This document shows positions 18,923 through 36,514 of a stretch of 64,000 nucleotides of DNA, piece after piece. Numbering within the stretch: position 1 is the stretch's first letter; the number at the start of each line of letters is the position of its first letter. Origin of the DNA: Streptomyces katrae (lineage in GTDB: Bacteria > Actinomycetota > Actinomycetes > Streptomycetales > Streptomycetaceae); contig NZ_CP020042.1 in the NCBI RefSeq assembly GCF_002028425.1, positions 1,488,001 to 1,552,000 on the forward strand, in the 5' to 3' direction. The position numbers and the translations under genes are program-made. The notes beneath the pieces are model-generated. The model did no database searches, was not told the origin of the DNA, and saw only the letters and a program-made list of their open reading frames with translations.

Positions 18923-18927
18923 CCCCC

Positions 18928-22528: not shown

Positions 22529-22565
22529 GATTCTCTCCTTGTTCTGGATTCGCTGCCGATTCAAC

Positions 22566-22586: not shown

Positions 22587-22598
22587 AAGGGGGTGACG

Positions 22599-23345
22599 TC
22601 AGGCCCGCGATACTTCGTCACGTGCGTCCAACGCCGTGAGGATCGTGCGGAATTCGCCGACCAGGGGGTGGTCGGGGAACGCTTCGGCGAATATGCGCTC
22701 GCCGTAGAGGGCCGCCATTTCCGGTACGTACGGGAGGATTCCGGCCAGGGGGGTGCCGTATACCTCCTCGGCGCGCCGGCGGACGGCTTGGTGGTCGACG
22801 CCCTCGGGCGCCATGCTCAGGACGAGGGCGCGCCGGCAGGCCAGCCGCCCGGCGAGGGCGATGGTCTCCTCGACCCCGGAGAGGTCCACGCGGTCCGCCC
22901 TCGTCATGATCAGTACGACGTCGGCGCTGCCCATGGCGGTCACCGACTCGTTGTTGAGCCCTGCGTGCGTGTCGAGCAGCAGGACGTCCAGCGCGTGGCT
23001 GCGCGCCAGCCGCTCGAAGCCCTCCGGGAGCAGGCCGACGTCGTACCCGGTGGCCATCAGCTCCCGCAGGGCCGCCGTCCCGGTCCGGGCCGGTACGACG
23101 TACAGGCCGGCCACCGAGGTGCGCCGGGCGGCGGCCTCGATCTCGCAGCGGCCGAGCAGGTAGTCGGCCAGCGAGCCGGTGCCCGGCGCGACCCCGAACA
23201 GCAGGTCCAGGGTGGGCGACTGGAGGTCGGTGTCGACCACCCCGACCCGCTGTCCGGCCGCGGCCAGCAGCAGGGCGAGGTTGGCCAGCACCGAGGACTT
23301 CCCGGTGCCGCCGCGGTGCGAGTGCACCACGATGGTCCGGGTCAT
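22599..23345 (-). CDS. MinD/ParA-superfamily ATPase
   Basis: Deviant Walker-A ATPase of about 248 residues. The P-loop is HSHRGGTGKSSV at residues 8-19, with the signature first Lys of KGGxGKS replaced by His-Arg. This removes the usual intermolecular lysine of ParA/MinD dimers (Arg11 may stand in). VVDTDLQSPTLDLLFG is the A' motif and LLLDTHAGLNNESV the Walker B region. It is not next to a ParB gene. In gliding-like, flagellar or secretion systems, related ATPases position complexes; here it follows the SpoIIE-like phosphatase with overlapping start and stop (GTGATGA-type junction), so it probably belongs to the same signalling unit. Target is unknown. Confidence 0.8.
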   Translation of the reverse strand: MTRTIVVHSHRGGTGKSSVLANLALLLAAAGQRVGVVDTDLQSPTLDLLFGVAPGTGSLADYLLGRCEIEAAARRTSVAGLYVVPARTGTAALRELMATGYDVGLLPEGFERLARSHALDVLLLDTHAGLNNESVTAMGSADVVLIMTRADRVDLSGVEETIALAGRLACRRALVLSMAPEGVDHQAVRRRAEEVYGTPLAGILPYVPEMAALYGERIFAEAFPDHPLVGEFRTILTALDARDEVSRA

Positions 23346-24604
23346 CACGCCACCACCCGGTAGCCCGCGCCGTCCGCATGCGGCCCCCGCGCCGCACGTG
23401 GCCGGTGCAGGGCCAGCATGGTGACGTCGTCGTGCTGTTCGGCGGTGCCGGTGTGCTCGCGCACCGCCCGGTCCATCAGGTCGACCACGTCCCGGCCGCT
23501 CGCCGGGGGGCCGGCGAGCAGTTCGAGCATCCTGTCGTCACCGAGGAAGTAGCCTTCGGGGCAGCGTGCCTCGGGCACTCCGTCGGTGAACACGAAAAGG
23601 GTGTCGCCCGGGTCGAGCTGGGCGTAGCCGAGGGTGTAGACGCAGTCGGGGAGGACCCCGACCGCAGGTCCCGTGACCTCCAGGGCCCGGGTGCCGGAGC
23701 CGTCGCCGGAGAGCAGCAGCGGCGGGTTGTGACCGCCGTTGATGTAGACGAGGCTGCCGGTGCGGGGGTCCAGGACGCCGAAGAAGAGGGTGGCGAAGTA
23801 CCCCTGCCTGAGGTGGTTGCGGGTGAGGTAGCCGTTGGTGGCGGTGACCGCGTTGAGCAGCGGGGTGGCGCCGACCACCGGGGTGCGCCGGCTGCCGCCG
23901 CTGCGGCCGGCGGCCATCAGGTGCTGCAGGCCGCTGTTCTCGGCGGTGTGGCGCAGCAGGGAGCGGATGAGCGCCATGAAGAGGGCGGCGCCCACTCCCT
24001 TGTCGCAGACGTCGGCGACGACGAGGGCCAGTCTGCGGCCCCGGGAGATCTCGAAGACGTCGTAGAAGTCCCCGGCGACCTGGCGGGCCGGCCGGAAGCG
24101 GACGTCGATCTCCCAGCCTGCGGGGACGGGCAGCGATTCGGGCAGGAAGCCGGCCTGGATCTCCCGGCCGATCTCCAGTTCCTTCTCGTAGCCCATGAGT
24201 TCGGCGCGGGCGTCGGCCTCCTGCACGGTGCGGCCGAGTCCGGCGCGTTCGGTGCAGCTGCGCAGCCGGGCCGCGACCAGGGCGGGCAGGAAGGGCGGGA
24301 CGAGGTAGTCGTGGCCGAGGCGGACGTGCCGCTCCAGGGCGGCGAAGTCGGCGACGGTCCAGGCGACCACGATCGGGGCCCCGGCCCAGCGGCGCAGCCG
24401 GCGCACGACGGTGCGCACGGTGTCCCCGTCGGCTTCGGCGGGGACGAGCAGGACGTCCCCCGCGGGCAGCGCGTCCAGGCGGCCGCGCAGCAGGAGCGGG
24501 AGGGTGGGGGTGACGAGTTCGGCGTCCATCAGCCGGAGCGCTTCGAGCAGTCCGGCCGGGGGCAGCGGGTGCACGTCGAGGATGATCACGGTCGTGGAGG
24601 GCAT
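23345..24604 (-). CDS. SpoIIE/RsbU-type PP2C serine phosphatase with receiver-like N-terminus
   Basis: A 419-residue phosphatase expected to dephosphorylate STAS anti-anti-sigma proteins. Residues 1-125 resemble a degenerate receiver domain, with no clear acidic pocket or phospho-acceptor Asp. Residues 140-170 form a short helical linker (ELEIGREIQAGFLP). The PP2C domain (about 175-400) has the metal-binding residues in QVAGDFYDVF and VVADVCDKGVGAALF, then INGGHNPPLLL, FVFTDGVPEA and QHDDVTMLAL. It overlaps the RsbW-like gene by 19 bases and the ATPase by one to four, giving one co-regulated module with two STAS proteins and a kinase. The input signal is unknown. Confidence 0.88.
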   Translation of the reverse strand: MPSTTVIILDVHPLPPAGLLEALRLMDAELVTPTLPLLLRGRLDALPAGDVLLVPAEADGDTVRTVVRRLRRWAGAPIVVAWTVADFAALERHVRLGHDYLVPPFLPALVAARLRSCTERAGLGRTVQEADARAELMGYEKELEIGREIQAGFLPESLPVPAGWEIDVRFRPARQVAGDFYDVFEISRGRRLALVVADVCDKGVGAALFMALIRSLLRHTAENSGLQHLMAAGRSGGSRRTPVVGATPLLNAVTATNGYLTRNHLRQGYFATLFFGVLDPRTGSLVYINGGHNPPLLLSGDGSGTRALEVTGPAVGVLPDCVYTLGYAQLDPGDTLFVFTDGVPEARCPEGYFLGDDRMLELLAGPPASGRDVVDLMDRAVREHTGTAEQHDDVTMLALHRPRAARGPHADGAGYRVVA

Positions 24605-25050
24605 GCGTCCGTCCCCTCGGCCTTGACGGTCAGCGTGCTGATGTTGCGGCCGTCCCTGCGGGCATAGGTGTACGCATCCACGCTGGTCAGGGCCAGGTGG
24701 ATGCCGAGGCCGCCGACCCTGCGCCGTTCCGGGGGGACCCCGGGGGCGGGCGGCAGGCGGCCTGCGACGGGGTCGAACGCGGGGGCGGTGTCCTCGATGA
24801 CGATCCGCACCCCGTCGGGACCGGAGCGGCCCAGGACGGTGATCCGTCCCTCGCCGCCCCGGTACCCGTGCATCACGATGTTGGTGGCCAGTTCGTCCAC
24901 GGCCAGCCGGATCCGGTACGTCGCCCCGGTGCCGAGGCCGGCCCGGGCGGCGAGCCGCAGGACGAACGCGGCGATCTCGCCCAGTGCCCCCAGCGTCGCG
25001 GGCACCTCCAGCACGGCGGGCTTCCTCGCCAGTTCGACCACGTCACTCAC
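24586..25050 (-). CDS. RsbW/SpoIIAB-like anti-sigma factor or STAS kinase
   Basis: A 154-residue GHKL ATPase of the anti-sigma kinase type. The N-box is LAVDELATNIVMHGY, followed by IVIEDTAPAFDP and GGLGIHLALTSVD, which form the nucleotide lid region. It would phosphorylate one or both STAS proteins encoded next door and bind a sigma factor or another target. No sigma factor gene lies in this window, so the target is encoded elsewhere or is not a sigma factor. It starts with GTG, 17 bases after the STAS gene, and its end overlaps the phosphatase start by 19 bases. Confidence 0.85.
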   Translation of the reverse strand: MSDVVELARKPAVLEVPATLGALGEIAAFVLRLAARAGLGTGATYRIRLAVDELATNIVMHGYRGGEGRITVLGRSGPDGVRIVIEDTAPAFDPVAGRLPPAPGVPPERRRVGGLGIHLALTSVDAYTYARRDGRNISTLTVKAEGTDACPPRP

Positions 25051-25067
25051 CGGCCCGGGCCGTGTGC

Positions 25068-25379
25068 TCAGTCATCGGCCAGCAGGATGCTGCGGTCGAG
25101 TCCGGCCGTGCGGATGGTCCGCGAGACGGGCTCGATGGCGCCGACCACCTTGATGGTGACGTGGTCCGCCACCTTCTGCTGGGCGAAGACCAAGGAGCGC
25201 AGCCCGGCGCTGGCCATGTAGCCGACGCCCGCCATCCGGATCTCGACGGTGCTGGTGCCGTGGCCGGCGGCCTTCTCGATGGTCTGGTGGAAGTCCGGCG
25301 CGGTCTTGGCGTCCAGCTCGCCCGTCAGTTCGATCACGGTGGTGTCGCCCTCGATGCTCAGGGACACGGAAAGCGGCAT
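25068..25379 (-). CDS. STAS-domain anti-sigma factor antagonist (downstream copy)
   Basis: A 103-residue single STAS domain. The loop that carries the regulatory serine reads YMASAGLRSL, placing the probable phosphorylation site at Ser57. Residues ELTGELDAKTAPDF are the usual first strand and helix. It lies 16 bases after glgX and 17 before the RsbW-like gene, so it is the natural substrate of that kinase and of the SpoIIE-like phosphatase. It differs clearly from the second STAS protein at 27525-27869, so the two may respond to different partners. Confidence 0.85.
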   Translation of the reverse strand: MPLSVSLSIEGDTTVIELTGELDAKTAPDFHQTIEKAAGHGTSTVEIRMAGVGYMASAGLRSLVFAQQKVADHVTIKVVGAIEPVSRTIRTAGLDRSILLADD

Positions 25380-25395
25380 GTCAGGTCTCCTTCGG

Positions 25396-27528
25396 TCACT
25401 CGGGGTCGTTGGCGCGGCCGACCAGGATCACGACCGAGCGCGGGCCGATCAGGTACTTGCCGGCGTTGTCGAGCTCCTGCTCGGTCCCCGGGGTGCGGAT
25501 GTCGTGCGGGGCCTCGGCGCCGGTGTCGGCGAACAGGTGCCAGCTGCGGCCGTGGGGCAGGGCGGGCAGTTCCAGGTCGTGCGCCTCCCAGTGGGAGTTC
25601 ATGGCCACGTACACCACGTCCTCGTCGGAGGTGCCGCAGCGGGCCACCGCGATCAGGCGGCTCTCCGGCGACCAGTCGGGCTGCCAGGCCCGCTCCCCGT
25701 GCCAGCTGATGTCCGGCAGCCCGAGGCCGTCGCGGAGCCGGCCGGTGGGGTGGGTGGTGGAGCGCAGCTCGCGGTGGCGGCCCCTGAAGGCGATCAGCTC
25801 GCGGGTGAAGCGGAGCAGTTCGGCGTTCTCGTCGACCTGGTCCCAGTCGAACCAGGACAGTTCGTTGTCCTGGCAGTAGGTGTTGTTGTTGCCCTGCTGG
25901 GTGCGGGCGACCTCGTCCCCGGACAGCAGCATCGGGATGCCCTGGCTGGTGAGCAGGATGGCCAGGGCGTTCTTCATCTGGCGCAGCCGCAGGGCGTTGA
26001 CGGCGGGGTCGTCCGTGGGGCCCTCGGCCCCGCAGTTCCAGCTGTTGTTGTCGTTGGCCCCGTCGTTGTTGCCCTCGCCGTTGGCCTCGTTGTGCTTGTC
26101 GTTGTACGAGACGAGGTCGGCCAGGGTGAAACCGTCGTGGGCCGTCAGGAAGTTGACGGATGCGGTGGTCCCGCGGCTGGAGTAGAGGTCGGGCGAGCCG
26201 GCTATCCGGGTGGCCAGCTCCCCCGTGACCCCGGGGTCGCCCTTGAGGAAGCGGCGCACGGTGTCGCGGTACTTGCCGTTCCACTCGGCCCAGCGGCCGT
26301 AGGCCGGGAAGTTGCCGACCTCGTAGAGGCCGCCCGCGTCCCAGGCCTCGGCGATCAGCTTGGTGTGCCGCAGGACGGGGTCGAAGGCGAGCATCTCCAG
26401 CAGCGGCGGGTTGGGCAGCGGGGTGCCGTCCAGGTCCCGGCCGAGGATGGCCGCGAGGTCGAAGCGGAAGCCGTCGACGTGGTAGTCGGCGACCCAGTGG
26501 CGCAGGCAGTCGAGCACGTAGTTGCGCACGACGGGGTGGTTGCAGTTGACCGTGTTGCCGGTGCCGCTGAAGTTGAAGTAGTACCCCTCGGGCGTGAGCA
26601 TGTAGTACGTGGCGTTGTCGAGGCCCTTGAAGGAGATGGTGGGGCCCTGCTCGTTGCCCTCGGCGGTGTGGTTGAAGACGACGTCGAGGATGACCTCGAT
26701 GCCGGCCGCGTGCAGGTCCTTGATCAGGGTGCGGAACTCGTCGCCCTGCATCCCGTAGCGTCCGGTGGCCGCGTAGCCGGCCTTGGGCGCGAAGAAGGAG
26801 ACGGTGTTGTAGCCCCAGTAGTCGTAGAGCTTCTCGCCGGTCTCCGGGTTGCTGCGCGGGTTGTCGCTCTCGTCGAACTCGAAGACGGGAAGCAGCTCGA
26901 TGCAGTTGACCCCGAGCTCCTTGAGGTACGGGATCTTCTCCCGCAGCCCCGCGAAGGTGCCGGGGGCGGTGACCTGCGAGGAGGGGTGCCGGGTGAAGCC
27001 TCGGACGTGGGCCTCGTAGACGACGAGGTCCTCGGCGGGGATCCCCAGCGGGGTGTCGTCGCCCCAGTCGAAGTCCTGGAGGCAGACCCGCGAGCGGTAC
27101 TGGTAGCCGCGGCTGCGGTCCGGCTCCACGCCCCACACGTCGCGGCCGGCGATCAGCCGGGCGTAGGGGTCGGAGAGGACCTGGCGGGCGTCGAAGCGGT
27201 GGCCGGTGGCCGGGTCGAAGGGGCCGTCGGCCCGGTAGCCGTACTCGATGTTCTCGTGGTCGAGGCCGAAGACCGTCATGGAGAAGACGCTGCCGGTGCG
27301 GAACTCGTCGGGGAATTCCAGCTCGGCCATCGGCTCGGGCTCTCCGCGCTTGTAGATGACCAGGGTCATGGAGGTGGCCTGGTCGGAGAAGACGGAGAAG
27401 CTGACCCCGCCGGGGACCACGTTGGCCCCGAAGGGGAACGGCTTGCCCGCGCGGACGCGGTACCCGCCCACTTCGTGGGTCGGGTACGCGTCCACGCGCA
27501 GCACTCGTTCGGAGCGGGCCTCGCTCAT
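25396..27528 (-). CDS. glgX: Glycogen debranching enzyme, GlgX/TreX type (GH13)
   Basis: A 710-residue isoamylase-type debranching enzyme that hydrolyses alpha-1,6 branches of glycogen or limit dextrin. An N-terminal CBM48 domain (about 20-120) precedes the GH13 barrel. Catalytic residues are seen as Asp357 in GFRFDLAA, Glu394 in LIAEAWDAGG and Asp465 in TAHDGFTL; the barrel motif DVVFNHTAEG is also present. The gene start overlaps the upstream STAS gene stop (ATGA) and a second STAS gene follows 16 bases later. This placement inside a partner-switching module is very unusual for a metabolic enzyme. It may mobilise storage glycogen under the control of the same stress signal, which is inference. 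Confidence 0.92.
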   Translation of the reverse strand: MSEARSERVLRVDAYPTHEVGGYRVRAGKPFPFGANVVPGGVSFSVFSDQATSMTLVIYKRGEPEPMAELEFPDEFRTGSVFSMTVFGLDHENIEYGYRADGPFDPATGHRFDARQVLSDPYARLIAGRDVWGVEPDRSRGYQYRSRVCLQDFDWGDDTPLGIPAEDLVVYEAHVRGFTRHPSSQVTAPGTFAGLREKIPYLKELGVNCIELLPVFEFDESDNPRSNPETGEKLYDYWGYNTVSFFAPKAGYAATGRYGMQGDEFRTLIKDLHAAGIEVILDVVFNHTAEGNEQGPTISFKGLDNATYYMLTPEGYYFNFSGTGNTVNCNHPVVRNYVLDCLRHWVADYHVDGFRFDLAAILGRDLDGTPLPNPPLLEMLAFDPVLRHTKLIAEAWDAGGLYEVGNFPAYGRWAEWNGKYRDTVRRFLKGDPGVTGELATRIAGSPDLYSSRGTTASVNFLTAHDGFTLADLVSYNDKHNEANGEGNNDGANDNNSWNCGAEGPTDDPAVNALRLRQMKNALAILLTSQGIPMLLSGDEVARTQQGNNNTYCQDNELSWFDWDQVDENAELLRFTRELIAFRGRHRELRSTTHPTGRLRDGLGLPDISWHGERAWQPDWSPESRLIAVARCGTSDEDVVYVAMNSHWEAHDLELPALPHGRSWHLFADTGAEAPHDIRTPGTEQELDNAGKYLIGPRSVVILVGRANDPE

Positions 27529-27869
27529 CGCGCGGCCCTGGCCCGCCCGGCGGCGGCCGCGGCCTGGCCGGTCTCGAAGAAGTCGAGGAAGCCGGTGGCC
27601 GACATGACGAACCGGACTTCCTCGCTCACCCCGTACAGGGTGACGGCGACGCCGGCGTGCTGGGCCTCGCGGTAGACGACCAGCAGGGTGCGCAGGCCGG
27701 CGCTGGAGACGTAGGTGACGGCGGTCAGGTCGATGCGCAGCGCCCGGCCCTCGCGGACGAGCGGCAGCAGGGTCTCCAGCAGGGTGCCGGAGGTCTCGCT
27801 GTTGATCTCGCCGGTGGCGACGAGCACGGTGCCCGTCTTGTTCCGGCGTTCCTTCAGGTTCAGACTCAT
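27525..27869 (-). CDS. STAS-domain anti-sigma factor antagonist (upstream copy)
   Basis: A 114-residue STAS protein. The regulatory loop is TYVSSAGLRTL with candidate phospho-serine Ser56. The C-terminus carries an alanine/arginine-rich tail of about 15 residues. Its stop codon overlaps the glgX start, so synthesis of this regulator and the debranching enzyme is coupled. It follows the AGE-fold gene by 40 bases. It could compete with the second STAS protein for the RsbW-like kinase. Confidence 0.83.
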   Translation of the reverse strand: MSLNLKERRNKTGTVLVATGEINSETSGTLLETLLPLVREGRALRIDLTAVTYVSSAGLRTLLVVYREAQHAGVAVTLYGVSEEVRFVMSATGFLDFFETGQAAAAAGRARAAR

Positions 27870-27909
27870 GTCGTGCTTCCCCTCTGGTTGGGGCGCCCCC
27901 CGTTGGGCA

Positions 27910-29733
27910 TTACTTCTGGGCCACCGGCCGGAGCCGGACCTTGACCTTGACCCGCCCCTGGACGTCGGGGAGGTGGACGGTCAGCTCGTCCGCGTCGAAC
28001 TCCTCGTACGGCTTCTCGTCGATCTCCACCGACGCGATCCGCACCGAGCCCGCGGGCAGCAGGTCGGGCGAGACGCGCAGGGTCCGGCCGGGCAGGTCGG
28101 CCGGGTCGGGCTGGAAGTGGAAGTCCATCTCCCGGCCGTTGATGAGCAGGTTGTTGTAGACGGCGGCGAGGTAGCACAGCTCCGCCGAGTGGTACATGGA
28201 CATCGAGTGGCTGCCCTTGAGCCGCTCGGTGCCGAGCAGGTACGGCGTGCCGCTGGCGAGCACGTTGAAGTACACGGCTCCCTCGTCGTGGTCGAGGAAG
28301 AAGGTGTTGTAGAAGGCCTGCGCCTGGCGTGCCTCGCGCAGGTTCGCCTCGCCGCCGACGGTGCCGTTCAGGATGAGGTAGGCGAGGATCGCCTGCTCCT
28401 GCTGCCACCAGGCCTTGCGGTCGTGCCAGGCGAAACGGTACGCCTCCTGGTCCCCCTCCTTCACCCGTTCCACGACGTCGTACCAGCCGCCGCGCTGGCG
28501 GTCGCTGCCGACGGCGGGCATGATCTCGCCGATCTTGCGGGCGAGCTCCTGGTAGGCGGGCTTGGCCTTCAGCGAGTTCATCCGCATCAGGTTCCAGGCG
28601 ATCTTCAGGTTGTGCCCGACGACCGCGCGGTTCTGCTGCCAGCTGTGCGCGGTGTCGTGCGACCAGTCGCGGAAGAAGCGCTCCTGGACGAACGGGCTGT
28701 TCTTGTAGTCCGGGAACTTGTCCGCGATGGTGTCGAAGGTGTACTCGAGGAAATCGGCGTACTTCTGGTCGCCGGTCGCCAGGTACAGGTTGATCAGGTA
28801 GGCGGGCGCGTGGTCGCCGACGGAGTTCCAGTTCTTGCGTTCGGCGTTCTCGCCCAGGGACTCGTGGTCGGGGCTGAAGAGGATCGGGTCGATGTGCGAG
28901 AAGTACCCGCCCTGCTCCGGGTCGTGGAAGAACTTGTCGAACAGCCGGATGGTGGCGTCGGCGTCGTTCTTGATCCGGACGTCGCCGGTGACCCGGTAGG
29001 TCTGGATCGGGCCGGCCAGGGCGTAGATCTGCTCGTACATCGGGATCGCGTCGTAGTCGTCGGAGAACTCCGAGGTGAACAGCTTGCGCTCGCTGTCCCC
29101 GTCGACGCTGATGCCGTGGTACCAGTAGACGACGTCTTCCTCGCTGTCCACGACCCGCATGTGCTTGCGCAGGTACTCGGTGCCGCGTTCGGCGATCTCC
29201 AGGTACTCGTCCTTGCCGGTCAGCAGGTAGGCCGAGGCCATGCCGTAGACCAGGCGGGAGATGGTGTCGGTCTCCTGGACGTGGCTGGCGGTCTTGTCGC
29301 CGCCGAGCCGGATCTCGGTGCGGTACTGCGTGAAGTCCACCGGCCCGTCACCGAACTGCGCCCGCTTGTAGAAGTCGGCGAGGGACTCGATCTGCTTGAC
29401 CCACCAGCCGGCCTCCTCGAAGCGGTAGTCCTCGGCGCTGCGGCCCAGGAAAACCAGCCGCTTGGCGTCGAAGCGGCCGCCCTGCTCGGGGTAGTGGACC
29501 CCGTAGGCGAAGAGGAACCGGCCGGCCGAGAGCATCTCGTCGACGTGCCCGGAGGCGTCGACGTACGGCTCGTCCAGGTTGCGCACCAGCTCGGCGCTGG
29601 GACCCGAGGCGAGCGAGACGTCGAACTCCCGGTCGTCGGCGGTCCGCAGGCGCAGCAGCCGCGACGCGGAGTCGAAGCGGACGACGTAGCCCGCGATCGT
29701 GTCGGAGAAGGAGAAGCCGGGCGTGCCCGCCAT
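27910..29733 (-). CDS. AGE-family (N-acylglucosamine 2-epimerase-like) protein
   Basis: A protein of about 607 residues. The first 95 residues are beta-rich and of unknown type. The central part (about 100-500) has the repeated helical pairs of an (alpha/alpha)6 barrel, with aromatic and His residues of the AGE family, for example DTAHSWQQNRAVVGHNLKIA and WHDRKAWWQQEQAI. The C-terminal 90 residues are again beta-rich. AGE relatives epimerise or isomerise sugars such as N-acylglucosamine, mannose or cellobiose; the flanking domains make this much longer than the typical 390-420 residues. ATG at 29733 is one base after the VOC stop. Exact sugar is unknown; glgX nearby suggests glucan-derived sugars. 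Confidence 0.72.
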   Translation of the reverse strand: MAGTPGFSFSDTIAGYVVRFDSASRLLRLRTADDREFDVSLASGPSAELVRNLDEPYVDASGHVDEMLSAGRFLFAYGVHYPEQGGRFDAKRLVFLGRSAEDYRFEEAGWWVKQIESLADFYKRAQFGDGPVDFTQYRTEIRLGGDKTASHVQETDTISRLVYGMASAYLLTGKDEYLEIAERGTEYLRKHMRVVDSEEDVVYWYHGISVDGDSERKLFTSEFSDDYDAIPMYEQIYALAGPIQTYRVTGDVRIKNDADATIRLFDKFFHDPEQGGYFSHIDPILFSPDHESLGENAERKNWNSVGDHAPAYLINLYLATGDQKYADFLEYTFDTIADKFPDYKNSPFVQERFFRDWSHDTAHSWQQNRAVVGHNLKIAWNLMRMNSLKAKPAYQELARKIGEIMPAVGSDRQRGGWYDVVERVKEGDQEAYRFAWHDRKAWWQQEQAILAYLILNGTVGGEANLREARQAQAFYNTFFLDHDEGAVYFNVLASGTPYLLGTERLKGSHSMSMYHSAELCYLAAVYNNLLINGREMDFHFQPDPADLPGRTLRVSPDLLPAGSVRIASVEIDEKPYEEFDADELTVHLPDVQGRVKVKVRLRPVAQK

Positions 29734-29734
29734 G

Positions 29735-30181
29735 TCATGCACCGTCCTTGTCGTGTGAGCTGTCGTCCTCGAATCCCTGACTGACCTCGACGATCACCCC
29801 GTCGGGATCGCGGACCCACACGGTCCGCCAGCCGCAGATGAAGTCGTCGAAGTCCAGCGGCCCCAGGGTCACGTCGGCCGCCTCGCCCAGTTCGGCGAGG
29901 AAGGCGTCGACGTCGTCCGTCTGGAAGGCCAGGTGCCGGATCCGGCCGGGGGCCGGCGGCCCGTCGTCGTGTGCCGGGCGGGCCGGGCCCACCGGCGACT
30001 CGAAGAGCTCCAGGTACGCGTCCCCCTTGCGCAGGAACACGATCCGGGCCTCCCCGAGGTCGACCACCCGGGCCCGGGTGAAGCCGAAGTACCGGGTGTA
30101 GAACTCCTCGGTGCTCTTCTGGTCGGCGCAGTTGAGGCCCACGTGCGACCAGACCATCGCGCGCTGCCCGGTGCCGGCCAT
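29735..30181 (-). CDS. VOC-superfamily (glyoxalase/dioxygenase fold) protein
   Basis: A 148-residue protein with two beta-alpha-beta-beta-beta repeats of the VOC fold. The first begins SHVGLNCADQKSTEEFYTR and the second IRHLAFQTDDVDAFLAEL, with a final VRDPDGVIVEVSQGF. Candidate metal ligands are His in the first repeat, His in RHLAF and Glu in VIVEV, the positions used by glyoxalase I-like enzymes. The ATG shares one base with the TGA of the DJ-1 gene upstream, so the two are coupled. A role in handling methylglyoxal-like aldehydes or a small-molecule rearrangement is possible; the family is too broad to be definite. Confidence 0.8.
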   Translation of the reverse strand: MAGTGQRAMVWSHVGLNCADQKSTEEFYTRYFGFTRARVVDLGEARIVFLRKGDAYLELFESPVGPARPAHDDGPPAPGRIRHLAFQTDDVDAFLAELGEAADVTLGPLDFDDFICGWRTVWVRDPDGVIVEVSQGFEDDSSHDKDGA

Positions 30182-30792
30182 CAGGCGTTCCCCCGGCCCC
30201 GGCGCGCCGCGAGCAGTTCGATGATCCGGCGGGCGAAGAGGTGGTGGTGGCCGCCGGTGCGGCCGGTGACCAGGTCCCCGTCGACCACCACGTCCTCGTC
30301 GACGTACTCGGCACCCATGTTGCGGACGTCGCCGATGAGGTTGTTGTGGCAGACCACCTTGCGGCCGCGGACCTTGTCCGGGATGGACGAGGCCAGCCAC
30401 ATGCCGTGGCAGATGATCCCCTTGAGGACGGTCGGTTCCTCGAAGGCCCGGCGCAGGAACTCGGTCGCGGGCGCCAGCACGTCCACGTCCTCGGTGTAGC
30501 GCAGCCGGTCGGCCACCATGCCCGAGGGCACGATGACCGCGGCGTACCGGCGCAGTTCCTCGTCGTCCAGCCCCTCCAGGGACTTCTCGGCGGTGAACGG
30601 CGCCCGGTACTCGTGCCCGGAGAAGGTGATGGAGTCGTTGCCCCACAGCCGGGTCAGGAAGTCGACCTCGGCGCCCTCCTCGGCGAACCGGCGCTGGTAG
30701 TAGAAGATCTCCGGCTCGTAGAAGTCGCTCTCGACCAGGACCGCGATCCGCGTCCCGCTCAGCGCGCCCTCGCGCAGTACGACGTCAGGCAC
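30181..30792 (-). CDS. DJ-1/PfpI-family protein (short form)
   Basis: A 203-residue PfpI-type protein. The nucleophile elbow is LKGIICHGMWLASS with Cys in the turn, and the conserved acidic residue lies in ESDFYEPEIFYY. Protein length fits intracellular protease/deglycase PfpI. The start overlaps the GMC oxidoreductase stop by eight bases, and the stop is fused to the VOC gene start. It could detoxify reactive carbonyls formed by the oxidoreductases of the same operon. Confidence 0.85.
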   Translation of the reverse strand: MPDVVLREGALSGTRIAVLVESDFYEPEIFYYQRRFAEEGAEVDFLTRLWGNDSITFSGHEYRAPFTAEKSLEGLDDEELRRYAAVIVPSGMVADRLRYTEDVDVLAPATEFLRRAFEEPTVLKGIICHGMWLASSIPDKVRGRKVVCHNNLIGDVRNMGAEYVDEDVVVDGDLVTGRTGGHHHLFARRIIELLAARRGRGNA

Positions 30793-32401
30793 GTCGGGCC
30801 CCCCTGTTCCGGCCGGTGAGGAAGTCCGCCGCGCGTTCGGCGATCATCGCAATGGCGGTGTGGCAGTTGCCCGACGGGACCGCCGGCATCACGCTCGCGT
30901 CCACGACGCGCAGGTTCCGTACGCCGTGCACCCGCAGTTCGGGGTCGACCACGCAGAGGTCGTCGACGCCCATCCGGCAGGAGCCCGCCTGGTGGTGGTA
31001 GCTCTCGGCCTTCTGCCGTACGAAGGTCCGCAGGTCTTCGTCGGTGACGGCGCCGGGCCCCGGCTGGAGCTCCTGCTTGTACCAGGGCGAGAAGGCGGAG
31101 GTGGCGAAGATCTCCCGGGCGAGCTTGACGCCCTGCACCATCCGTTCGAGGTCCCAGCGGTCGCCCAGGTAGTTCGGGTTGATCAGCGGGTGGGCGAGCG
31201 GGTCGGCGCTCGCCAGCCGGACGGAGCCGCGCGAGACCGGGCGGACGACGCCGGGCAGGATGGACACCGTGTTCGGGTGGCTGCGGCCGACGATCACGTC
31301 GAAGGGGACGTGGACGAAGGCGATCTGGAGGTCCGGGGCGGGCAGTCCGGGCCGGGAGGACAGGAACAGCGCGCTCTCCGACAGGTTCTGCGCCGGCGCC
31401 GGGAGTTCCTGGGTGACCTCGGCCATCAGCCCGGTCAGGACGTGGTTGTGGAAGTTCTCGCCGACCCCGGGCAGGGCCGCGGTGACCTCGATGCCGTGCT
31501 CGCGCAGCTGCTCGGGGTGGCCGATGCCGGAGAGCAGCAGCAGCTTCGGGGACTCGATCGCCCCGGCGGCCACGATCACCTCCCGGCGGGCCCGCACGGT
31601 GTGCAGTCCGGGGGCCGCGGCGGTGCTGTGGCCGTCGCGTACCGTCCGGCCGGGGATCTCGGCCGGGGGCCGGAGCTGGACGTACTCGACGCCCGTGCAG
31701 GTGTCCCCGTCGAAGAGCAGCCGGGTGGTCTGCGCGCTGGTGCGCAGGGTCAGGTTGGGGCGGGCGAGGGCCGGCTCCAGGTAGGCGGCCAGGGTGCCCT
31801 GGCGGCGGCCGTCGGCCACGTCGATGTGGTGCCAGCCGGTGCCGAAGAGGCCGCGGCGGGGGCCGTCGGTGTTGAAGTCGGCGATCTCCTGGTGGCCGAG
31901 TTCGACGGCGGCCTCGATGAAGGCGCGGGAGACCGGGTTGGGGCCGTGCCGCCCGGCGTTGGTGACCCGCTGGGGGCCGCCGGTGCCGGTGGTGGGGGCG
32001 GTGGCGTCCTCCTGGTCCTCCAGCAGCGCGAAGTACGGCAGCACGTCCTCGTACGCCCAGCCGGCCGCGCCCTGGTAGGCCCAGTTGTCGAAGTCCGAGG
32101 CGTGGCCCCGGATGTGCATCATGATGTAGAGGTTGCTGCTGCCGCCGGGCGCCTTGCCGCGCGGCTCGTAGGTCCGCCGCCCGCCGAGGCCCGGCTGCGG
32201 GACGCTGGTGTAGCCCCAGTCGACGGGGCCGCCGAGCAGCTTGTACCAGGAGGACGGGTCGTCCACCTCGGGCGGGATGCGGTTCCCGCCGGCCTCCAGG
32301 ACCAGGACGGAGACGTCCGGGTCGGCGGAGAGGCGGTGGGCGAGGACGCTGCCGGCGGTGCCGGAGCCGACGATCACGTAGTCGTACTGGTCTGTGGCCA
32401 C
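30785..32401 (-). CDS. GMC-family FAD oxidoreductase (choline dehydrogenase/alcohol oxidase-like)
   Basis: A flavoenzyme of about 538 residues that oxidises an alcohol to an aldehyde or a sugar to a lactone. The N-terminal FAD motif is VIVGSGTAGSVLAHRL with the usual LEAGG about 25 residues later. Further signatures are GGSSNLYIMMHIRG and, near the C-terminus, HHQAGSCRMGVDD with VVDASVMPAVPSGNCH, in which the active-site His pair of the GMC family is present as His plus Asn/His. GTG at 32401 follows the NTF2-like gene stop by 14 bases and has GAGGGG upstream. Substrate is unknown; carbohydrate or choline-like alcohols are typical. Confidence 0.87.
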   Translation of the reverse strand: MATDQYDYVIVGSGTAGSVLAHRLSADPDVSVLVLEAGGNRIPPEVDDPSSWYKLLGGPVDWGYTSVPQPGLGGRRTYEPRGKAPGGSSNLYIMMHIRGHASDFDNWAYQGAAGWAYEDVLPYFALLEDQEDATAPTTGTGGPQRVTNAGRHGPNPVSRAFIEAAVELGHQEIADFNTDGPRRGLFGTGWHHIDVADGRRQGTLAAYLEPALARPNLTLRTSAQTTRLLFDGDTCTGVEYVQLRPPAEIPGRTVRDGHSTAAAPGLHTVRARREVIVAAGAIESPKLLLLSGIGHPEQLREHGIEVTAALPGVGENFHNHVLTGLMAEVTQELPAPAQNLSESALFLSSRPGLPAPDLQIAFVHVPFDVIVGRSHPNTVSILPGVVRPVSRGSVRLASADPLAHPLINPNYLGDRWDLERMVQGVKLAREIFATSAFSPWYKQELQPGPGAVTDEDLRTFVRQKAESYHHQAGSCRMGVDDLCVVDPELRVHGVRNLRVVDASVMPAVPSGNCHTAIAMIAERAADFLTGRNRGARRA

Positions 32402-32415
32402 GGGTCCGGTTCCCC

Positions 32416-32799
32416 TCAGTCCTGGCTCAGCACCTGGAAGGGAACGGTGTCGTGGAAGTTGGCCATGTAGGCGATCCGGCCGTCCACGATCCGGAAGAAG
32501 TTCATCACCTCGGCCTCGATGGCCTGCCCCGACGGGCTTTCGGCGGTGATGTGGGAGACGGCCGCGGCCTTCTCCCCGTCGACCAGGAAGTGCACGGGCT
32601 CGTTGCGGAAGACCCGGTACATGGCCCCCATGCCCTTCATCATCGACCGCAGGGTCTCCAGGCCCTCGATGTGTCCGGCGAGCTGCTCGTCCATGACCTG
32701 GTCCTCGGCGAACAGGTCGCACCAGCGGTCCCAGTCCCCGGCGTTGGCGTACTCGTAGTACTTTCGAAGGACTTCGGTCACGCTCTCTCGGGCGTCCAT
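32416..32799 (-). CDS. NTF2/SnoaL-like protein (third of three)
   Basis: A 127-residue NTF2-fold protein: helix-rich start VTEVLRKYYEYANAGDWDRWCDLFAEDQVM, then curved beta strands with VSHITAESPSGQAIEAEVMNFFRIVDGRIAYMANFHD. The WCDLFAEDQV and FRIVDGRIAYM motifs are typical of SnoaL-like proteins. It is separated by 14-15 bases from its neighbours. Function may be cyclisation, isomerisation or simple ligand binding. Confidence 0.8.
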   Translation of the reverse strand: MDARESVTEVLRKYYEYANAGDWDRWCDLFAEDQVMDEQLAGHIEGLETLRSMMKGMGAMYRVFRNEPVHFLVDGEKAAAVSHITAESPSGQAIEAEVMNFFRIVDGRIAYMANFHDTVPFQVLSQD

Positions 32800-32814
32800 C
32801 GGTCTCTCATCCCC

Positions 32815-33270
32815 CTATCGGTCCCTGCGGGTGCCGTCCGGCGCGAAGGGCGCCCAGAACTGGCTGAAGGCACTGGCCGTGTCGCCGAAGAGCCCGTCGC
32901 GGCCCTCGACGATCCGCCCGTCGCGCCACTTCATGAAGTGGAAGACCGGGTAGTCCATCCGCTCGTACGGGGAGCCGGCCGCCGGGTCCGCGCCGTCCCG
33001 CAGGGCGGTGTTGCGGCAGACGTCGGCGCTGCAGTCCGGCCCGGTCAGGACCGCTTCCAGCTCCATGCGGAAGGTGCCGCCGGTGAGCTTGTGGGTCTGG
33101 CCCATCAGCTCCAGGAAGGCGTCCAGGCTCTCGTACCAGCCGGCCAGCGGGTGGTTGCCGGGCACCAGCCAGCGCAGGTCCTCGGAGTAGTACTCCAGGA
33201 TGCGCGCGCGGTCTCCGGAGCCGAGGGCCCGGTAGGCGGCCTCGACCCGCTCGCGGGTCACTTCGGTCAT
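32815..33270 (-). CDS. NTF2/SnoaL-like protein (second of three)
   Basis: A 151-residue NTF2-fold protein. VEAAYRALGSGDRARILEYYSEDLRWLVPGNHPLAG is the usual helix pair and first strand; VFHFMKWRDGRIVEGRDGLFGDT is the final strand region. It contains a Cys pair in PDCSADVCRNT absent from the other copies. Sequence similarity to the flanking copies is low, so this is not a recent duplication. It is in the same closely spaced run, 13 bases after the 33284 gene. Confidence 0.8.
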   Translation of the reverse strand: MTEVTRERVEAAYRALGSGDRARILEYYSEDLRWLVPGNHPLAGWYESLDAFLELMGQTHKLTGGTFRMELEAVLTGPDCSADVCRNTALRDGADPAAGSPYERMDYPVFHFMKWRDGRIVEGRDGLFGDTASAFSQFWAPFAPDGTRRDR

Positions 33271-33283
33271 CGCCGCGGCCCTT

Positions 33284-33715
33284 TCAGAGCGAGCCCGAAC
33301 CGGGCATCGGCGCCAGTTCGTTGACGGTGTACTGCTTGATCAGCGGGCCGTCCGCGCCCGCCACCACGGTCCAGGTCTGGTCGGCGTCGAAGCCGAGCCA
33401 CTGGCTGCGGGCGGCCGGCGGGTCCCAGATCTTGGCCTGCCAGTTGACGAGGACGCGGACGATCGCCCGGTCGCCCTCGATGACCGGCTCCACCTTGGTG
33501 ACCGTGTGCACCTCGTCGAAGAAGCGGTGGGTGACGGCGTCGTACCAGCGGCCGAAGCCCTGGTGGCCGAGGAAGGTGTCCTCGGGGACCTTGAACTCCA
33601 GGTCCTCGGTGATGAGGGCGAGGACCTGCTCCAGCGGGAGGTGGCGGTCCAGGGCCACGTACCAGTTCTCGGCGAAGGTGCGGATCGCGTCCTCGGTCAG
33701 CCGCTCGGCGGGCAT
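33284..33715 (-). CDS. NTF2/SnoaL-like protein (first of three)
   Basis: A 143-residue NTF2-like protein: ENWYVALDRHLPLEQVLALITEDLEFKVPEDTFLGHQGFGRWYDAV is typical of the fold, followed by strands containing VIEGDRAIVRVLVNWQAKIWDP. It begins 34 bases after the ThDP-enzyme stop. The three tandem copies have different lengths (143, 151 and 127), and could form a hetero-oligomer or act on successive intermediates. Confidence 0.8.
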   Translation of the reverse strand: MPAERLTEDAIRTFAENWYVALDRHLPLEQVLALITEDLEFKVPEDTFLGHQGFGRWYDAVTHRFFDEVHTVTKVEPVIEGDRAIVRVLVNWQAKIWDPPAARSQWLGFDADQTWTVVAGADGPLIKQYTVNELAPMPGSGSL

Positions 33716-33749
33716 GCGGTCTCCTCCTGTTCGGTGTGGTCCGGTCGGT

Positions 33750-35396
33750 TCAGATCTGGACGTCGACGAGGTACGGGCCGGGGTGGGCCAGCATCCGGTC
33801 CACGGCGGCGGCCGCCTCGTCCGGCTTCTCCACCCGCGTCCCGTCGGCGCCCAGCGCCCGGGCGAGCCCCGCGAAGTCGATCTCGGGGCGGGAGAGGTCG
33901 AAGGAGCCCGGGAAGGGGTGTCCGGCGATGTCCCGTTCCCGCCAGTACTGGGCGATGTTGTCGTCGAGCAGCCGGTACTTGCGGTTGTTGCAGACCACGA
34001 ACTTGGCGTCGATACCGTGCCGGACCGCCGTCCACAGCGCCTGGTAGGTGTACATGGACCCGCCGTCGCCCGCGAAGCCGACGACGAGCCGGTCGGGGCG
34101 GGCCAGCTTGGCGCCGACCGCCCCCGGGAAGCCCACGCCCAGCGAACCGCCCCGGGTGAGGTGGTAGTCGCCCGGGCGCTCGGGCGGCAGGTACCGGGTG
34201 ACGAGCGGGGAGGTGGTCAGCGCCTCGTCGAAGACGATCAGGTCCCCGCCGGTGCGCTCGGCCAGCCTCCGCAGGAAGACGGCCATCGGCGTGTCCTCGT
34301 CCGGGGACGGCTGCCGGGCGGCGTCGGCCCGCTCCCCGGTCCTCGCCTGGAGCCGCGCGGCCGCCGCCGCGCGCCGCTGCGGGGTGAGCCGCTGTTCCAG
34401 CACGCCGGCCAGCGCGCGCAGCGCCTGGCGCGGGTCGGCGGCGAGCCCGAGGTCGACGGGGTGGTTCTTGGCGATCTCGTAGGCGTTCAGGTCGATGTGC
34501 ACGACCCTGGCGCCGGGCCGGAAGGGGTTCTCCAGTTCGGGGAACACCTCGGGGAAGACGTAGGTGCCGACGATCAGCACCCCGTCGGCCTCCCCGACCA
34601 GCTCCTTGCTGTGCGGGCCGAACATGTGGCCGGTCTGGCCGCGGCGCAGCGGGTGCGAGGCCGCGATGTTGACCTCGGAGGAGTCGACCTCGTACACGTC
34701 GGCGCCCAGCAGCTCGGCGACGGCGGCGAGTTCGGCCTGGGCCCCGGAGAGCGAGACCCCGTCCCCGACGAGGAGCACGGGGCGTTCGGCGGAGGCGAGC
34801 AGCTCCGCCGCCCGGCCCACCGAGGCCGGCGAGGGCGCCACGTCGGTCAGCGGCACGGTGGCGGGCAGGACGGGTTCGGAGTTGAGCTCGTCCAGCACGT
34901 CCATGGGCAGGGCCACGAACACCGGGCCGCGCGGCGGGGTGAGGGCGATCTTCACGGCCCGCCGGATCGTGCGCAGCACGGACCGGGGGTCGGTGACCCG
35001 GGTCGCGTACTTGGTCACGGGCCTGGCCATGGCCACCAGGTCACTGGCCATCTGGGCGTCCATGGCGTCGTAGCGCACCCCGGCGTCGCCGGCGACCACG
35101 ACCAGCGGGGTGTGGCCGCGCAGCGACTGGTAGAGCATGCCGATGCCGTTGCCCAGCCCCACGCCGGAGTGCAGCTGGAGCAGGGCCGCACCGCCGGTGG
35201 CCCGGGCGTAGCCGTCGGCGATGCCGGCGGCCACGGTCTCCTGGAGGGCCAGGACGTAGTGGAAGTCCGCCGCCGCGTCCGCCGCGTCGAGGAATCCCTG
35301 TTCCACCGTTCCCGGATTTCCGAACATCACCGTCAGGCCGTCGGCCTTGAACTGCTCGATCAGCCTTTCCCGTCCGGGAGTGGCTTCGGAATTCAT
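33750..35396 (-). CDS. Thiamine diphosphate-dependent enzyme (decarboxylase/acetolactate synthase-like)
   Basis: A 548-residue ThDP enzyme with the three-domain layout of the pyruvate oxidase family. The PYR domain carries the activating Glu in LALQETVAAGIADGYA. The central domain has AERPVLLVGDGVSLSGA. The PP domain has the cofactor motif GDGGSMYTYQALWTAV, ending in NNRKYRLLDDN. NPGTVEQGFLD near the start resembles benzoylformate decarboxylase and related 2-oxo acid decarboxylases. There is no small subunit gene, which argues against a biosynthetic acetolactate synthase. The ribosome site GGGGGAG precedes ATG at 35396. Likely reaction: decarboxylation of a 2-oxo acid to an aldehyde, or carboligation. 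It fits with the aldehyde-handling neighbours. Confidence 0.87.
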   Translation of the reverse strand: MNSEATPGRERLIEQFKADGLTVMFGNPGTVEQGFLDAADAAADFHYVLALQETVAAGIADGYARATGGAALLQLHSGVGLGNGIGMLYQSLRGHTPLVVVAGDAGVRYDAMDAQMASDLVAMARPVTKYATRVTDPRSVLRTIRRAVKIALTPPRGPVFVALPMDVLDELNSEPVLPATVPLTDVAPSPASVGRAAELLASAERPVLLVGDGVSLSGAQAELAAVAELLGADVYEVDSSEVNIAASHPLRRGQTGHMFGPHSKELVGEADGVLIVGTYVFPEVFPELENPFRPGARVVHIDLNAYEIAKNHPVDLGLAADPRQALRALAGVLEQRLTPQRRAAAAARLQARTGERADAARQPSPDEDTPMAVFLRRLAERTGGDLIVFDEALTTSPLVTRYLPPERPGDYHLTRGGSLGVGFPGAVGAKLARPDRLVVGFAGDGGSMYTYQALWTAVRHGIDAKFVVCNNRKYRLLDDNIAQYWRERDIAGHPFPGSFDLSRPEIDFAGLARALGADGTRVEKPDEAAAAVDRMLAHPGPYLVDVQI

Positions 35397-35415
35397 CGGA
35401 CTCCCCCTCATTCCC

Positions 35416-36240
35416 CTACCACCCGTAACGGGTGAGGCCGTTCTCCAGGACTTCCACGATCTTCTGCCCCGTGAGGTACGAGTCGGGGGTGGAGCGGCCG
35501 GTGACGAAGGGATAGTCGACTATCACGGACAGCGGGTGGCCGAAATTCCCGTGATAGGCGCCGCGCGGGCCGGTCGCGTCGCGCAGGATGTACTCCAGCG
35601 GGTACGGCGGCGGGCCCATGTTGAAGTCGGTGCCGAGAAATCCGGTGCCGTCCTTGTAGTCGTACTCCTTGCAGTGGCCCGTGACGTGCTTGCCCCAGAT
35701 GATGCTCTTGCGGTCGCCCCAGTCGCGGGCGAAGGCCAGGCAGGCGACGCCGTAGCACTCGGCGGCCACGACCTTGCCGGCGTTCTTGAAGGCGAGGATC
35801 AGGGCGTGGACCCGCTCGTTGTTGGCGAGGTCGACGATGGGACCGCTGCCGCCGACGATCAGGATCGCGTCGTAGCCGGCGATGTCGGCCTCGAGCTTCT
35901 CCAGGTCCCGGTGGTACTGCTCCAGCTTGCGCAGGTAGGCCTCGTCGCTCGTGTACGGGCGTTCCGGCACCCACGCCTCGATGTCGAGGGGCGAGTCGAG
36001 GCGGCTCGACTGCTCGAACTCCCGGCCCAGCCGGGCGTTCTCCTCCGAGGTGACCGAGCGGCCGAGCGGAGGGTCGACGAAGCTGGGGTCGAGGCTCGGC
36101 GGAAGCGCGTGGGCGCGCTTTCCGGTCGGCGTGGCGAATGTGATCTCGTAGCCCTGCTCGTCGAACTTCGAAACGGGACCGATCAGTTCCTCGGACCAGT
36201 AACCGTGTTCGGAGACAATGACCAGAATCTTTCTGCTCAC
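35416..36240 (-). CDS. DJ-1/PfpI-family protein, first gene of the 15-gene run
   Basis: A 274-residue DJ-1/PfpI-fold protein. The nucleophile elbow is VVAAECYGVACLAF, with Cys in ECYG, after ILIVGGSGPIVDLANN; the ESEELIGP-like acidic position is seen as WSEELIGPV. GTG at 36240 has an excellent ribosome site, GGAGG, five bases away. The gene faces a 274-base divergent region and is the first of at least 15 genes in a row. Enzyme class is likely hydratase/deglycase or amidase-like; substrate unknown. Its length and the VGGSGP loop place it in a different subgroup from the other two DJ-1 proteins. Confidence 0.83.
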   Translation of the reverse strand: MSRKILVIVSEHGYWSEELIGPVSKFDEQGYEITFATPTGKRAHALPPSLDPSFVDPPLGRSVTSEENARLGREFEQSSRLDSPLDIEAWVPERPYTSDEAYLRKLEQYHRDLEKLEADIAGYDAILIVGGSGPIVDLANNERVHALILAFKNAGKVVAAECYGVACLAFARDWGDRKSIIWGKHVTGHCKEYDYKDGTGFLGTDFNMGPPPYPLEYILRDATGPRGAYHGNFGHPLSVIVDYPFVTGRSTPDSYLTGQKIVEVLENGLTRYGW

Positions 36241-36514
36241 GGATTCCTCCAGGCGCGGCCTGTTGTGTTTGCGTCCACCACACTGCGTGCGGCCGGAGCC
36301 CGCGTCAAAGGGCGGGAATGCGACTTCGTGAGGTAGCGGGCAAGGTGGTGGCGGCACCTCACCTAGTAGTCCGGCGAGGTCAGGAAGTACGCGCCGGACT
36401 TCCTGACCTCGGCCGGATCGCTGAACCATTTCAAGATCCCCGTTTTATGGTCTGGACGCCCCGTGATGGGCGGGCGCGCCGGGTCAGGAGTGCGTGAGGA
36501 GAGGGACGGGGACG
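36241..36514. promoter_or_regulatory. Divergent promoter region between the PfpI operon and the UBP/reductase set
   Basis: This 274-base gap separates two divergent transcription units. It contains the strong inverted repeat at 36371-36416 and a smaller one, GTGAGGT at 36328-36334 against ACCTCAC at 36356-36362. A locally AT-richer stretch, CATTTCAAG to CGTTTTATGG (about 36427-36450), may hold a promoter. No clear gene is seen, although a minus-strand open frame at 36363-36434 could encode a 23-residue peptide. Confidence 0.5.
36371..36416. repeat. Near-perfect 18-bp inverted repeat
   Basis: Left arm 36371-36388 (CCGGCGAGGTCAGGAAGT) and right arm 36398-36416 are complementary with a single one-base bulge; loop ACGCGCCGG. 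The innermost 14 bp are perfect. Because both neighbouring genes read away from it, a terminator is not expected. A regulator binding site, or an RNA structure in a long leader of either gene, is more likely. Confidence 0.55.

Follow-up and report, generated by a model that had tools for sequence, protein, structure and literature searches.

A Streptomyces katrae gene cluster joining a partner switch to carbohydrate and carbonyl enzymes is probably an actinobacterial form of the icfG operon

Within a 64,000-nucleotide stretch of the Streptomyces katrae genome (contig NZ_CP020042.1, positions 1,488,001 to 1,552,000; this whole stretch is called the window here), 15 genes follow one another on the minus strand from position 36240 to position 22599. 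They encode the parts of a partner switch (an RsbW-like kinase, a PP2C phosphatase, and two STAS proteins, STAS1 and STAS2), a GlgX-type debranching enzyme, an AGE-fold protein, two DJ-1 proteins (DJ1a and DJ1b), and further enzymes, with a MinD-like ATPase as the last product (Table 1). We conclude that the cluster is probably the actinobacterial form of a known system, the icfG operon, and that its extra enzymes, its ATPase, and its phosphatase sensor are what differs. An earlier sequence-only reading knew of no described system with this composition; for the core this did not hold, since the core matches the icfG operon slr1852–slr1862 of Synechocystis.

The original studies of the icfG operon are reportedly those of Beuf 1994, Shi 1999, and Gonzalez 2001, as named in citing papers. 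The likeness of the window to the operon of Synechocystis sp. PCC 6803 rests on an alignment with Synechocystis salina and on published gene lists. The latter, in the passages available, place an epimerase, an anti-sigma factor antagonist, GlgX, and IcfG in slr1852–slr1862 (PMC8670252) and name slr1856, slr1857, slr1859, slr1860, and slr1861 as members of the icfG operon (PMC12329169). In S. salina (locus L082), one run encodes a 203-aa protein, CMD, DJ-1, AGE, STAS, GlgX, STAS, a 634-aa phosphatase, and a 143-aa kinase. Identities between the window and S. salina are 33% for DJ-1, 63% for AGE, 35% for the first STAS, 62–63% for GlgX, 42% for the second STAS, 42% for PP2C, and 38% for the kinase; the 33% relative of DJ1b lies immediately upstream of AGE. 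The icfG gene set (AGE, STAS, GlgX, STAS, PP2C, kinase) is present and co-directional in the window, with kinase and phosphatase in reversed order relative to S. salina. With S. salina as the reference, orthology of GlgX to the slr1857 type is given by a tree (support 81) and that of AGE to the slr1855 type by 63% identity alone. After the kinase gene, S. salina also has a 711-aa gene (L082, 17219–19354) with a weak lactate-racemase-like domain.

The GlgX tree was a quick one of 48 selected rows: the window, 26 loci with this arrangement, and 21 others. The 27 GlgX proteins of the icfG-type arrangement are set apart by a single branch with a Shimodaira–Hasegawa-like approximate likelihood ratio test (SH-aLRT) value of 81, and the labels change once on the tree compared with 15.8 times in shuffles, none of 500 shuffles being that low. 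We set the "switch" labels from locus contents; among the 26, three (L071, L086, and L097) show neither a kinase nor a phosphatase match in their flank and two (L070 and L096) have these genes on the opposite strand. The clade unites actinobacteria, a Trueperaceae genome, a Chloroflexota genome, and cyanobacteria, and those GlgX paralogues of the same genomes that entered the tree, including two from the window's own genome, are placed outside it. Window GlgX shares 63% identity with the icfG-type GlgX of S. salina vs. 46–47% with its two own-genome paralogues.

We then compared gene order across loci retrieved with an AGE protein alignment. At least 586 stretches matched and at least 572 were confirmed relatives; the best 80 were analysed, and because only these were kept, the sample holds closer relatives and not all of them. 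(The AGE protein search itself scored 7996 candidates, of which 4760 matched at E ≤ 0.001; the best 120 matches were listed.) All 80 loci were searched with the 16 window proteins, the 16th being DJ1c, introduced below. We called loci with AGE at ≥85% identity near copies (n = 26); of the other 54, 48 have at least 6 kb downstream of AGE. All 15 genes in order, plus DJ1c, occur in 25 of 26 near copies, and the 26th (L020) lacks PP2C and MinD because its contig ends. For the more distant loci, we counted the best tblastn match per gene at 40% coverage and accepted kinase and phosphatase either way round. AGE, STAS1, GlgX, STAS2, kinase, and phosphatase lie on the same strand in 39 of 48 and in order in 38; MinD is present in 28. 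L075 was counted as a full core but not in order, its STAS1 and STAS2 matches being one gene; the same holds for those of L086, and two genes, therefore, enter both STAS counts. By phylum, the core is in order in 32 of 34 loci from Actinomycetota, 1 of 1 from Deinococcota, 1 of 1 from Chloroflexota, and 4 of 12 from Cyanobacteriota. The linkage supposed by the sequence-only reading is, thus, conserved in near and more distant relatives, with a patchy presence. AGE was found in 12 of 61 genomes of the genus, and an independent search for DJ1a (E ≤ 1e-40) returned exactly the same 12; these are not 12 independent events, because several of the genomes are near-kin (AGE 92–93% alike). GMC at ≥90% occurs in 6 of the 61, the own genome included. 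The class sample has AGE in 8 of 394 genomes and the phylum sample in 2 of 198, namely the own genome and a partial 26% match with two stops that was not counted as an orthologue. Sphaerisporangium melleum (L069) carries the 16-gene cluster and the flanking fusion gene described below with AGE at 87%, and four other Sphaerisporangium loci have AGE at 63–75%; from these identities, the L069 cluster looks like an acquisition by horizontal transfer between genera.

From first gene to last, the intergenic distances are 19, 34, 13, 15, 14, −8, −1, 1, 40, −4, 16, 17, −19, and −4 nt, values that depend on the start codons we picked from the candidates. Reading frames and gaps bear out the 15-gene, one-strand run described earlier: the widest gap is 40 nt, and there are five overlaps. 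Because the gene for the HchA-like protein DJ1c lies on the same strand 70 nt beyond the MinD gene and keeps this position in all but one of the 26 near copies, the unit is probably one of 16 genes. The same reading had seen no hairpin terminator between the genes. Terminator-like hairpins in 21500–36900 are indeed at chance level: there are 4, shuffled sequences have 3.9 on average, and those on the operon strand, two in number, fall within the AGE and STAS2 genes. A consensus scan of 21500–36900 found no sigma-70-type promoter. It missed a candidate read by eye upstream of DJ1a (Table 1), which sits in a stretch largely conserved among 26 aligned upstream regions. The stress-type promoter GxxT-N13-16-GGGTAY had no match in these 26 regions or within the run. 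A short upstream ORF (KWFSDPAEVRKSGAYFLTSPDY) was considered as a conserved element and rejected, because of all upstream regions examined, just those of L020 and L089 had a similar peptide. Same-strand arrangement by itself is poor evidence of linkage in Streptomyces. The evidence for the run as a unit is, rather, conservation of order, from which co-transcription is predicted.

The protein families named in the sequence-only reading are all backed by Pfam, to which three SnoaL-like proteins are added, and its complete partner-switching module stands: kinase, phosphatase, and two STAS proteins with conserved acceptor Ser are tied physically and evolutionarily to GlgX, AGE, and DJ-1. The STAS1 S56 column has Ser in all 73 rows. 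The STAS2 S57 column has Ser in 71 of 77 rows and Thr in 6, these six being the AGE-adjacent STAS of the Nostoc-type loci L090, L092–L094, L098, and L099. Among 68 kinase rows, the E and N of the N-box of the Bergerat fold are present in all, the G1 pattern in 65 (not in L048, L070, and L096), and the G2 pattern in 66 (not in L054 and L070); the window kinase has all three motifs. The metal-binding Asp motifs of the phosphatase are also conserved, with GDFYD, DVCDKG, and DD(I/V)T in 67 of 67 rows and TDG in 66, the remaining row having SDG.

What varies is the phosphatase N terminus. In the structure model of the window protein (mean predicted local distance difference test, pLDDT, 85.8), residues 1–100 have the strand and helix order of a receiver, and a long helix leads to the PP2C domain; in our reading of the alignment, the acceptor Asp is absent and the Lys of the KPF motif is replaced (PPF). 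The window phosphatase thus has this receiver-like domain in place of the membrane sensor (Cache, HAMP) of the icfG type; in S. salina, the N terminus has HAMP together with a Cache match below the cut-off. Other members have GAF (the cyanobacterial L076 and L078), receiver plus GAF (L080, Chloroflexota), or nothing recognised by Pfam (Calothrix, L091). Because the sensors of these members also differ, we treat sensor type as a lineage trait and not as defining, and the sequences suggest a constant partner-switch core with an interchangeable sensor.

MinD/ParA proteins carry a signature Lys in the Walker motif. The MinD-like ATPase has Arg at this position, and its HSxRGG-type motif recurs in 51 of the 54 best matches within the 80 loci. 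Its gene overlaps the phosphatase gene by 4 nt; domain types and overlap suggest that the two might form a split pair of the CpaE/TadZ-like type, in which a receiver-like domain is combined with an ATPase.

Gene content, order, relatedness across phyla, and the catalytic and acceptor residues are direct observations; the chemistry of kinase, STAS, and phosphatase would, by analogy, be that of the Synechocystis proteins. According to passages of PMC12329169 and PMC11619594, the kinase Slr1861 phosphorylates both operon STAS proteins, and the phosphatase IcfG acts on one of them, removing phosphate from Slr1856 and not from Slr1859. Slr1861 also binds and phosphorylates Ssr1600 and controls SigC, and mutants in icfG and in slr1859 show low-carbon/glucose phenotypes (PMC12329169, PMC11619594). 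For Slr1857, the passages available report that the expressed protein was assayed as a debranching enzyme of the isoamylase type (PMC4911114) and that its level goes up when nitrogen is depleted (PMC3859321). Transferred to S. katrae, the kinase would phosphorylate the STAS proteins at Ser56 and Ser57, and the phosphatase would dephosphorylate at least one of them on a carbon or energy state reported by the receiver-like sensor, perhaps with the MinD-like ATPase. Dephosphorylated STAS would then bind the kinase, which would let go of its partner; this partner is most likely a sigma factor whose gene lies outside the cluster (compare Slr1861/SigC). GlgX would free sugar from α-glucan, AGE would isomerise or epimerise it, and the DJ-1, VOC, ThDP (thiamine diphosphate), and GMC proteins would deal with reactive carbonyl products, so that storage-carbon use and its regulation would be produced together.

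We consider a sigma factor encoded elsewhere the most likely kinase target because of Slr1861–SigC, Ssr1600, and the mutant data from Synechocystis. The sequence-only reading noted no sigma factor gene in the run. This stands: tblastn with queries from nine own sigma-70 loci, with a positive control that worked, found no sigma-70 relative in the window or in any of the 80 loci, extracytoplasmic function (ECF) types being outside this search. Its further step, that the target may, therefore, not be a sigma factor, is weak. The Synechocystis icfG gene lists, in the passages available, name no sigma factor (PMC12329169, PMC8670252), yet Slr1861 controls SigC, and the absence of a linked sigma gene is, thus, no evidence against a sigma target.

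It is possible, although we find it doubtful, that the switch mainly governs growth or development through a sigma-B/F/G-type factor, the enzymes being one target set of many; this overlaps with an icfG-type carbon-control operon and differs from it in the primary output. RsbW-type kinases commonly act on the sigma-B/F/G class, and the own genome has five such factors over the family cut-off, none inside the window. Two of the five were tried as targets by co-occurrence across the 61 genomes (E ≤ 1e-95) and rejected: one occurs in 3 genomes and the other in 7, 2 of which lack AGE, and neither follows the cluster.

We regard it as unlikely that the output is the enzymes and not a sigma factor, with unphosphorylated STAS1 or the kinase binding AGE or GlgX and setting its activity, as c-di-GMP (cyclic di-GMP) does on another streptomycete GlgX. 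The absence of sigma-70 relatives from all 80 loci fits this, as do loci where a STAS gene adjoins AGE and neither kinase nor phosphatase is matched in the flank (L086, L090, L092–L094, L098, and L099) or where the STAS2–kinase–phosphatase block is on the opposite strand (L096). On the other hand, the operon's kinase controls SigC in Synechocystis, and the AGE-adjacent STAS of the six Nostoc-type loci is an ∼30% match to STAS2, not STAS1, with a Thr acceptor. Moreover, in L179 and L181, Streptomyces loci with no switch, GlgX closely follows AGE with no STAS1 match between, and the enzymes, therefore, do not need STAS1.

The clustered GlgX also speaks for such an output in that it lacks the c-di-GMP motif. 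In Streptomyces venezuelae, according to passages of PMC9530166, c-di-GMP activates one GlgX by way of an ExR(x)6R/RETD site and is not bound by a second (see also PMC13232838). A check of the sequences found ELRETDAFVR in the own-genome paralogue L129 and no ExRETDxxxR motif in the clustered GlgX or in paralogue L136. The clustered GlgX is, thus, a third type, presumably under switch control instead of c-di-GMP. A specific form of this idea, in which STAS1 gates AGE/GlgX directly while the receiver-like phosphatase and the MinD-like ATPase report carbon, redox, or position, seems to us quite improbable; if true, it would give Streptomyces a second, c-di-GMP-independent control of glycogen debranching. 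Window GlgX retains the FD, E, and HD sites, and across 72 rows, simple pattern matching found AE(A/P)WD in 70 and HDG in 63. In the PDB, window GlgX scores highest against chains of plant isoamylase 1 (660 bits) and lower, at 523 bits, against the GlgX entry 7u39, which we take to be S. venezuelae GlgX.

Several points weigh against assigning the cluster to the icfG type. Eight of the 12 cyanobacterial loci with enough flank lack a complete same-strand core: six are Nostoc-type loci with AGE beside a different GlgX (48–49%) and a STAS gene, L096 has the STAS2–kinase–phosphatase block on the opposite strand, and L086 has only STAS beside AGE and GlgX. Compared with S. salina, where phosphatase precedes kinase, the window has the kinase first, and its degenerate receiver is unrelated to the Cache-HAMP sensor. 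The branch supporting the GlgX clade has an SH-aLRT of just 81 in a quick tree, and the nearest sisters of the clade are GlgX proteins of two Streptomyces without a switch nearby (G014 and G036). Neither of the two sigma factors tested tracks the cluster. In the open-licence literature searched (titles, abstracts, and passages), we found neither an icfG-type operon outside cyanobacteria nor experimental work on a Streptomyces member.

The remaining point against this assignment is that enzymes and switch can be separated. We checked the neighbourhoods in the own genome and in 8 others of the 12 AGE genomes (G039, G042, and G054 lying outside the sample). The switch is present in the own genome, G012, G033, and G038. 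Five genomes (G003, G011, G014, G017, and G036) have DJ1a, ThDP, DJ1b, AGE, and another GlgX, and the stretches covered match neither the kinase nor the phosphatase; G014 has a STAS2-like match (32%) after GlgX. The enzymes form one run in G014 and G036, are split over two contigs in G017, and in G003 and G011 have DJ1a–ThDP–DJ1b ∼10–20 kb from AGE on the opposite strand. The switch is, therefore, not needed for the pathway. SnoaL, GMC, and VOC make up a further block, apart from AGE in L070 and L075. Of the link between switch and enzymes drawn in the sequence-only reading, the tie of kinase, phosphatase, and STAS to GlgX, AGE, and DJ-1 by conserved order stands, whereas the enzymes also exist without the switch in these five genomes. 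We consider it very unlikely that the run reflects ordinary operon packing, a general Rsb-type module co-transcribed with carbohydrate genes and having no functional tie to them: Rsb modules are abundant in Streptomyces and the two parts are separable (the five genomes; L070), but order is preserved in four phyla, the arrangement has a single GlgX clade, and icfG-operon mutants have carbon phenotypes. An actinobacterial icfG-type carbon-control operon, thus, remains the likely explanation.

The reactions of the AGE, ThDP, and GMC proteins can be suggested from their relatives. The AGE model (mean pLDDT 78.8) has glucose/cellobiose 2-epimerases and mannose isomerase as nearest folds. Read by eye, its GHN and K..WQQ motifs align with Runella glucose-2-epimerase, and Runella D254 (mutated in 8h1m) faces Gln in the window protein; because of this exchange, the substrate may differ. 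Top PDB matches of the ThDP enzyme are benzoylformate decarboxylases, and those of the GMC oxidoreductase are choline dehydrogenase and alcohol/choline oxidases; NCBIfam matches of both were under the cut-offs. By simple patterns, the Cys motif is AAECYG in 43 of 59 DJ1a, CHG-type in 61 of 70 DJ1b, and CHG in 27 of 27 DJ1c sequences.

Table 1. Features of the cluster and its surroundings, in window coordinates
Feature	Position	Strand	Basis or detail
DJ1a, ThiJ/PfpI-like, first gene of the run	35416..36240	-	PF17124, PF01965; Cys in AAECYG (motif from residue 159)
ThDP-dependent enzyme, closest to benzoylformate decarboxylase	33750..35396	-	Pfam TPP_enzyme N/M/C
SnoaL-like protein 1	33284..33715	-	PF12680, PF13577
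SnoaL-like protein 2	32815..33270	-	PF12680
SnoaL-like protein 3	32416..32799	-	PF12680, PF07366
GMC oxidoreductase, choline-dehydrogenase/oxidase-like	30785..32401	-	PF00732, PF05199
DJ1b, PfpI-like, Cys in IICHG	30181..30792	-	PF01965
VOC/glyoxalase-fold protein	29735..30181	-	PF00903
AGE-fold protein, helical barrel with strand-rich N- and C-terminal parts	27910..29733	-	PF07221, AlphaFold model
STAS1, anti-anti-sigma type, V54-S-S56-A-G-L-R	27525..27869	-	PF01740; TIGR00377 over cut-off
GlgX/isoamylase-type debranching enzyme, icfG clade	25396..27528	-	TIGR02100 over cut-off; tree
STAS2, anti-anti-sigma type, M55-A-S57-A-G-L-R	25068..25379	-	TIGR00377 over cut-off
RsbW/SpoIIAB-like serine kinase	24586..25050	-	PF13581; NCBIfam RsbW models below cut-off
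PP2C/SpoIIE phosphatase, degenerate N-terminal receiver	23345..24604	-	PF07228; structure model
MinD/ParA-like ATPase, Walker A HSHRGGTGKS	22599..23348	-	PF13614
DJ1c, HchA-like DJ-1 protein, probable 16th gene	21788..22528	-	PF01965; NF003168 below cut-off
Divergent receiver-thioredoxin-reductase-like fusion	36751..38523	+	PF00072 + PF07992
Possible promoter, TTGACG-N17-CAGTGT, ∼40 nt upstream of DJ1a	36280..36308	-	by-eye reading, weak

Divergent from DJ1a, the gene for the receiver-thioredoxin-reductase-like fusion flanks the cluster in all 26 near copies and is close to it in 10 of the 54 other loci (L075, L085, L088, L090, L092–L095, L098, and L099), a count that leaves out partial or 27–28% matches in L050–L052 and L059. 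Identity is 61–62% in actinobacteria and 55–56% beside AGE in Nostoc-type loci, and the fusion possibly belongs to the module. By eye, the usual CxxC is apparently absent (YYGAATTESSAC). An AbmR-like protein (38585–39958, plus strand; NF058631 over the cut-off) is encoded beside the cluster in most near copies, and the ABM-like and truncated-haemoglobin-like frames after it, named by eye, are also kept in most. On the other side, minus-strand frames at 20112–21641 and 16520–19153, favoured as coding by codon-position GC over long plus-strand frames opposite, carry on in the same orientation downstream of DJ1c; both have relatives in most near copies, the second partly, as loci end.

The icfG operon is a partner switch joined to central carbon metabolism; the papers listed describe it from Synechocystis alone. 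The ordered core in actinobacteria, a Trueperaceae genome, and a Chloroflexota genome would make the icfG type a widespread carbon switch in which the core stays constant and the sensor can be exchanged. Streptomyces, with its known c-di-GMP control of glycogen and a RETD-type paralogue, would offer an internal contrast, and STAS targets would become approachable outside photosynthesis. In addition, the co-occurrence of DJ1a with AGE is a lead to the function of this DJ-1 protein.

Among known systems, the RsbU/V/W and SpoIIAA/AB/E partner switches share the kinase, STAS, and PP2C families and motifs with the window, which differs in having no linked sigma gene found, two STAS proteins, and linked metabolic enzymes. 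Pseudomonas aeruginosa RssB (receiver-linker-PP2C) has the domain layout of the window phosphatase and is the best fold match of its model, whereas the window receiver has neither the acceptor Asp nor the Lys of the KPF motif. The c-di-GMP-activated GlgX of S. venezuelae belongs to the same family of glycogen-debranching enzymes as window GlgX but differs by the ExRETDxxxR motif, which L129 has and the clustered enzyme lacks. The icfG operon shares the most: AGE-STAS-GlgX-STAS-phosphatase/kinase in one run, two STAS proteins with acceptor Ser, and in S. salina, DJ-1 ahead of AGE. It differs by a CMD gene in S. salina that is not among the window's 16, which, in turn, alone include MinD, ThDP, three SnoaL, GMC, VOC, and two further DJ-1 genes.

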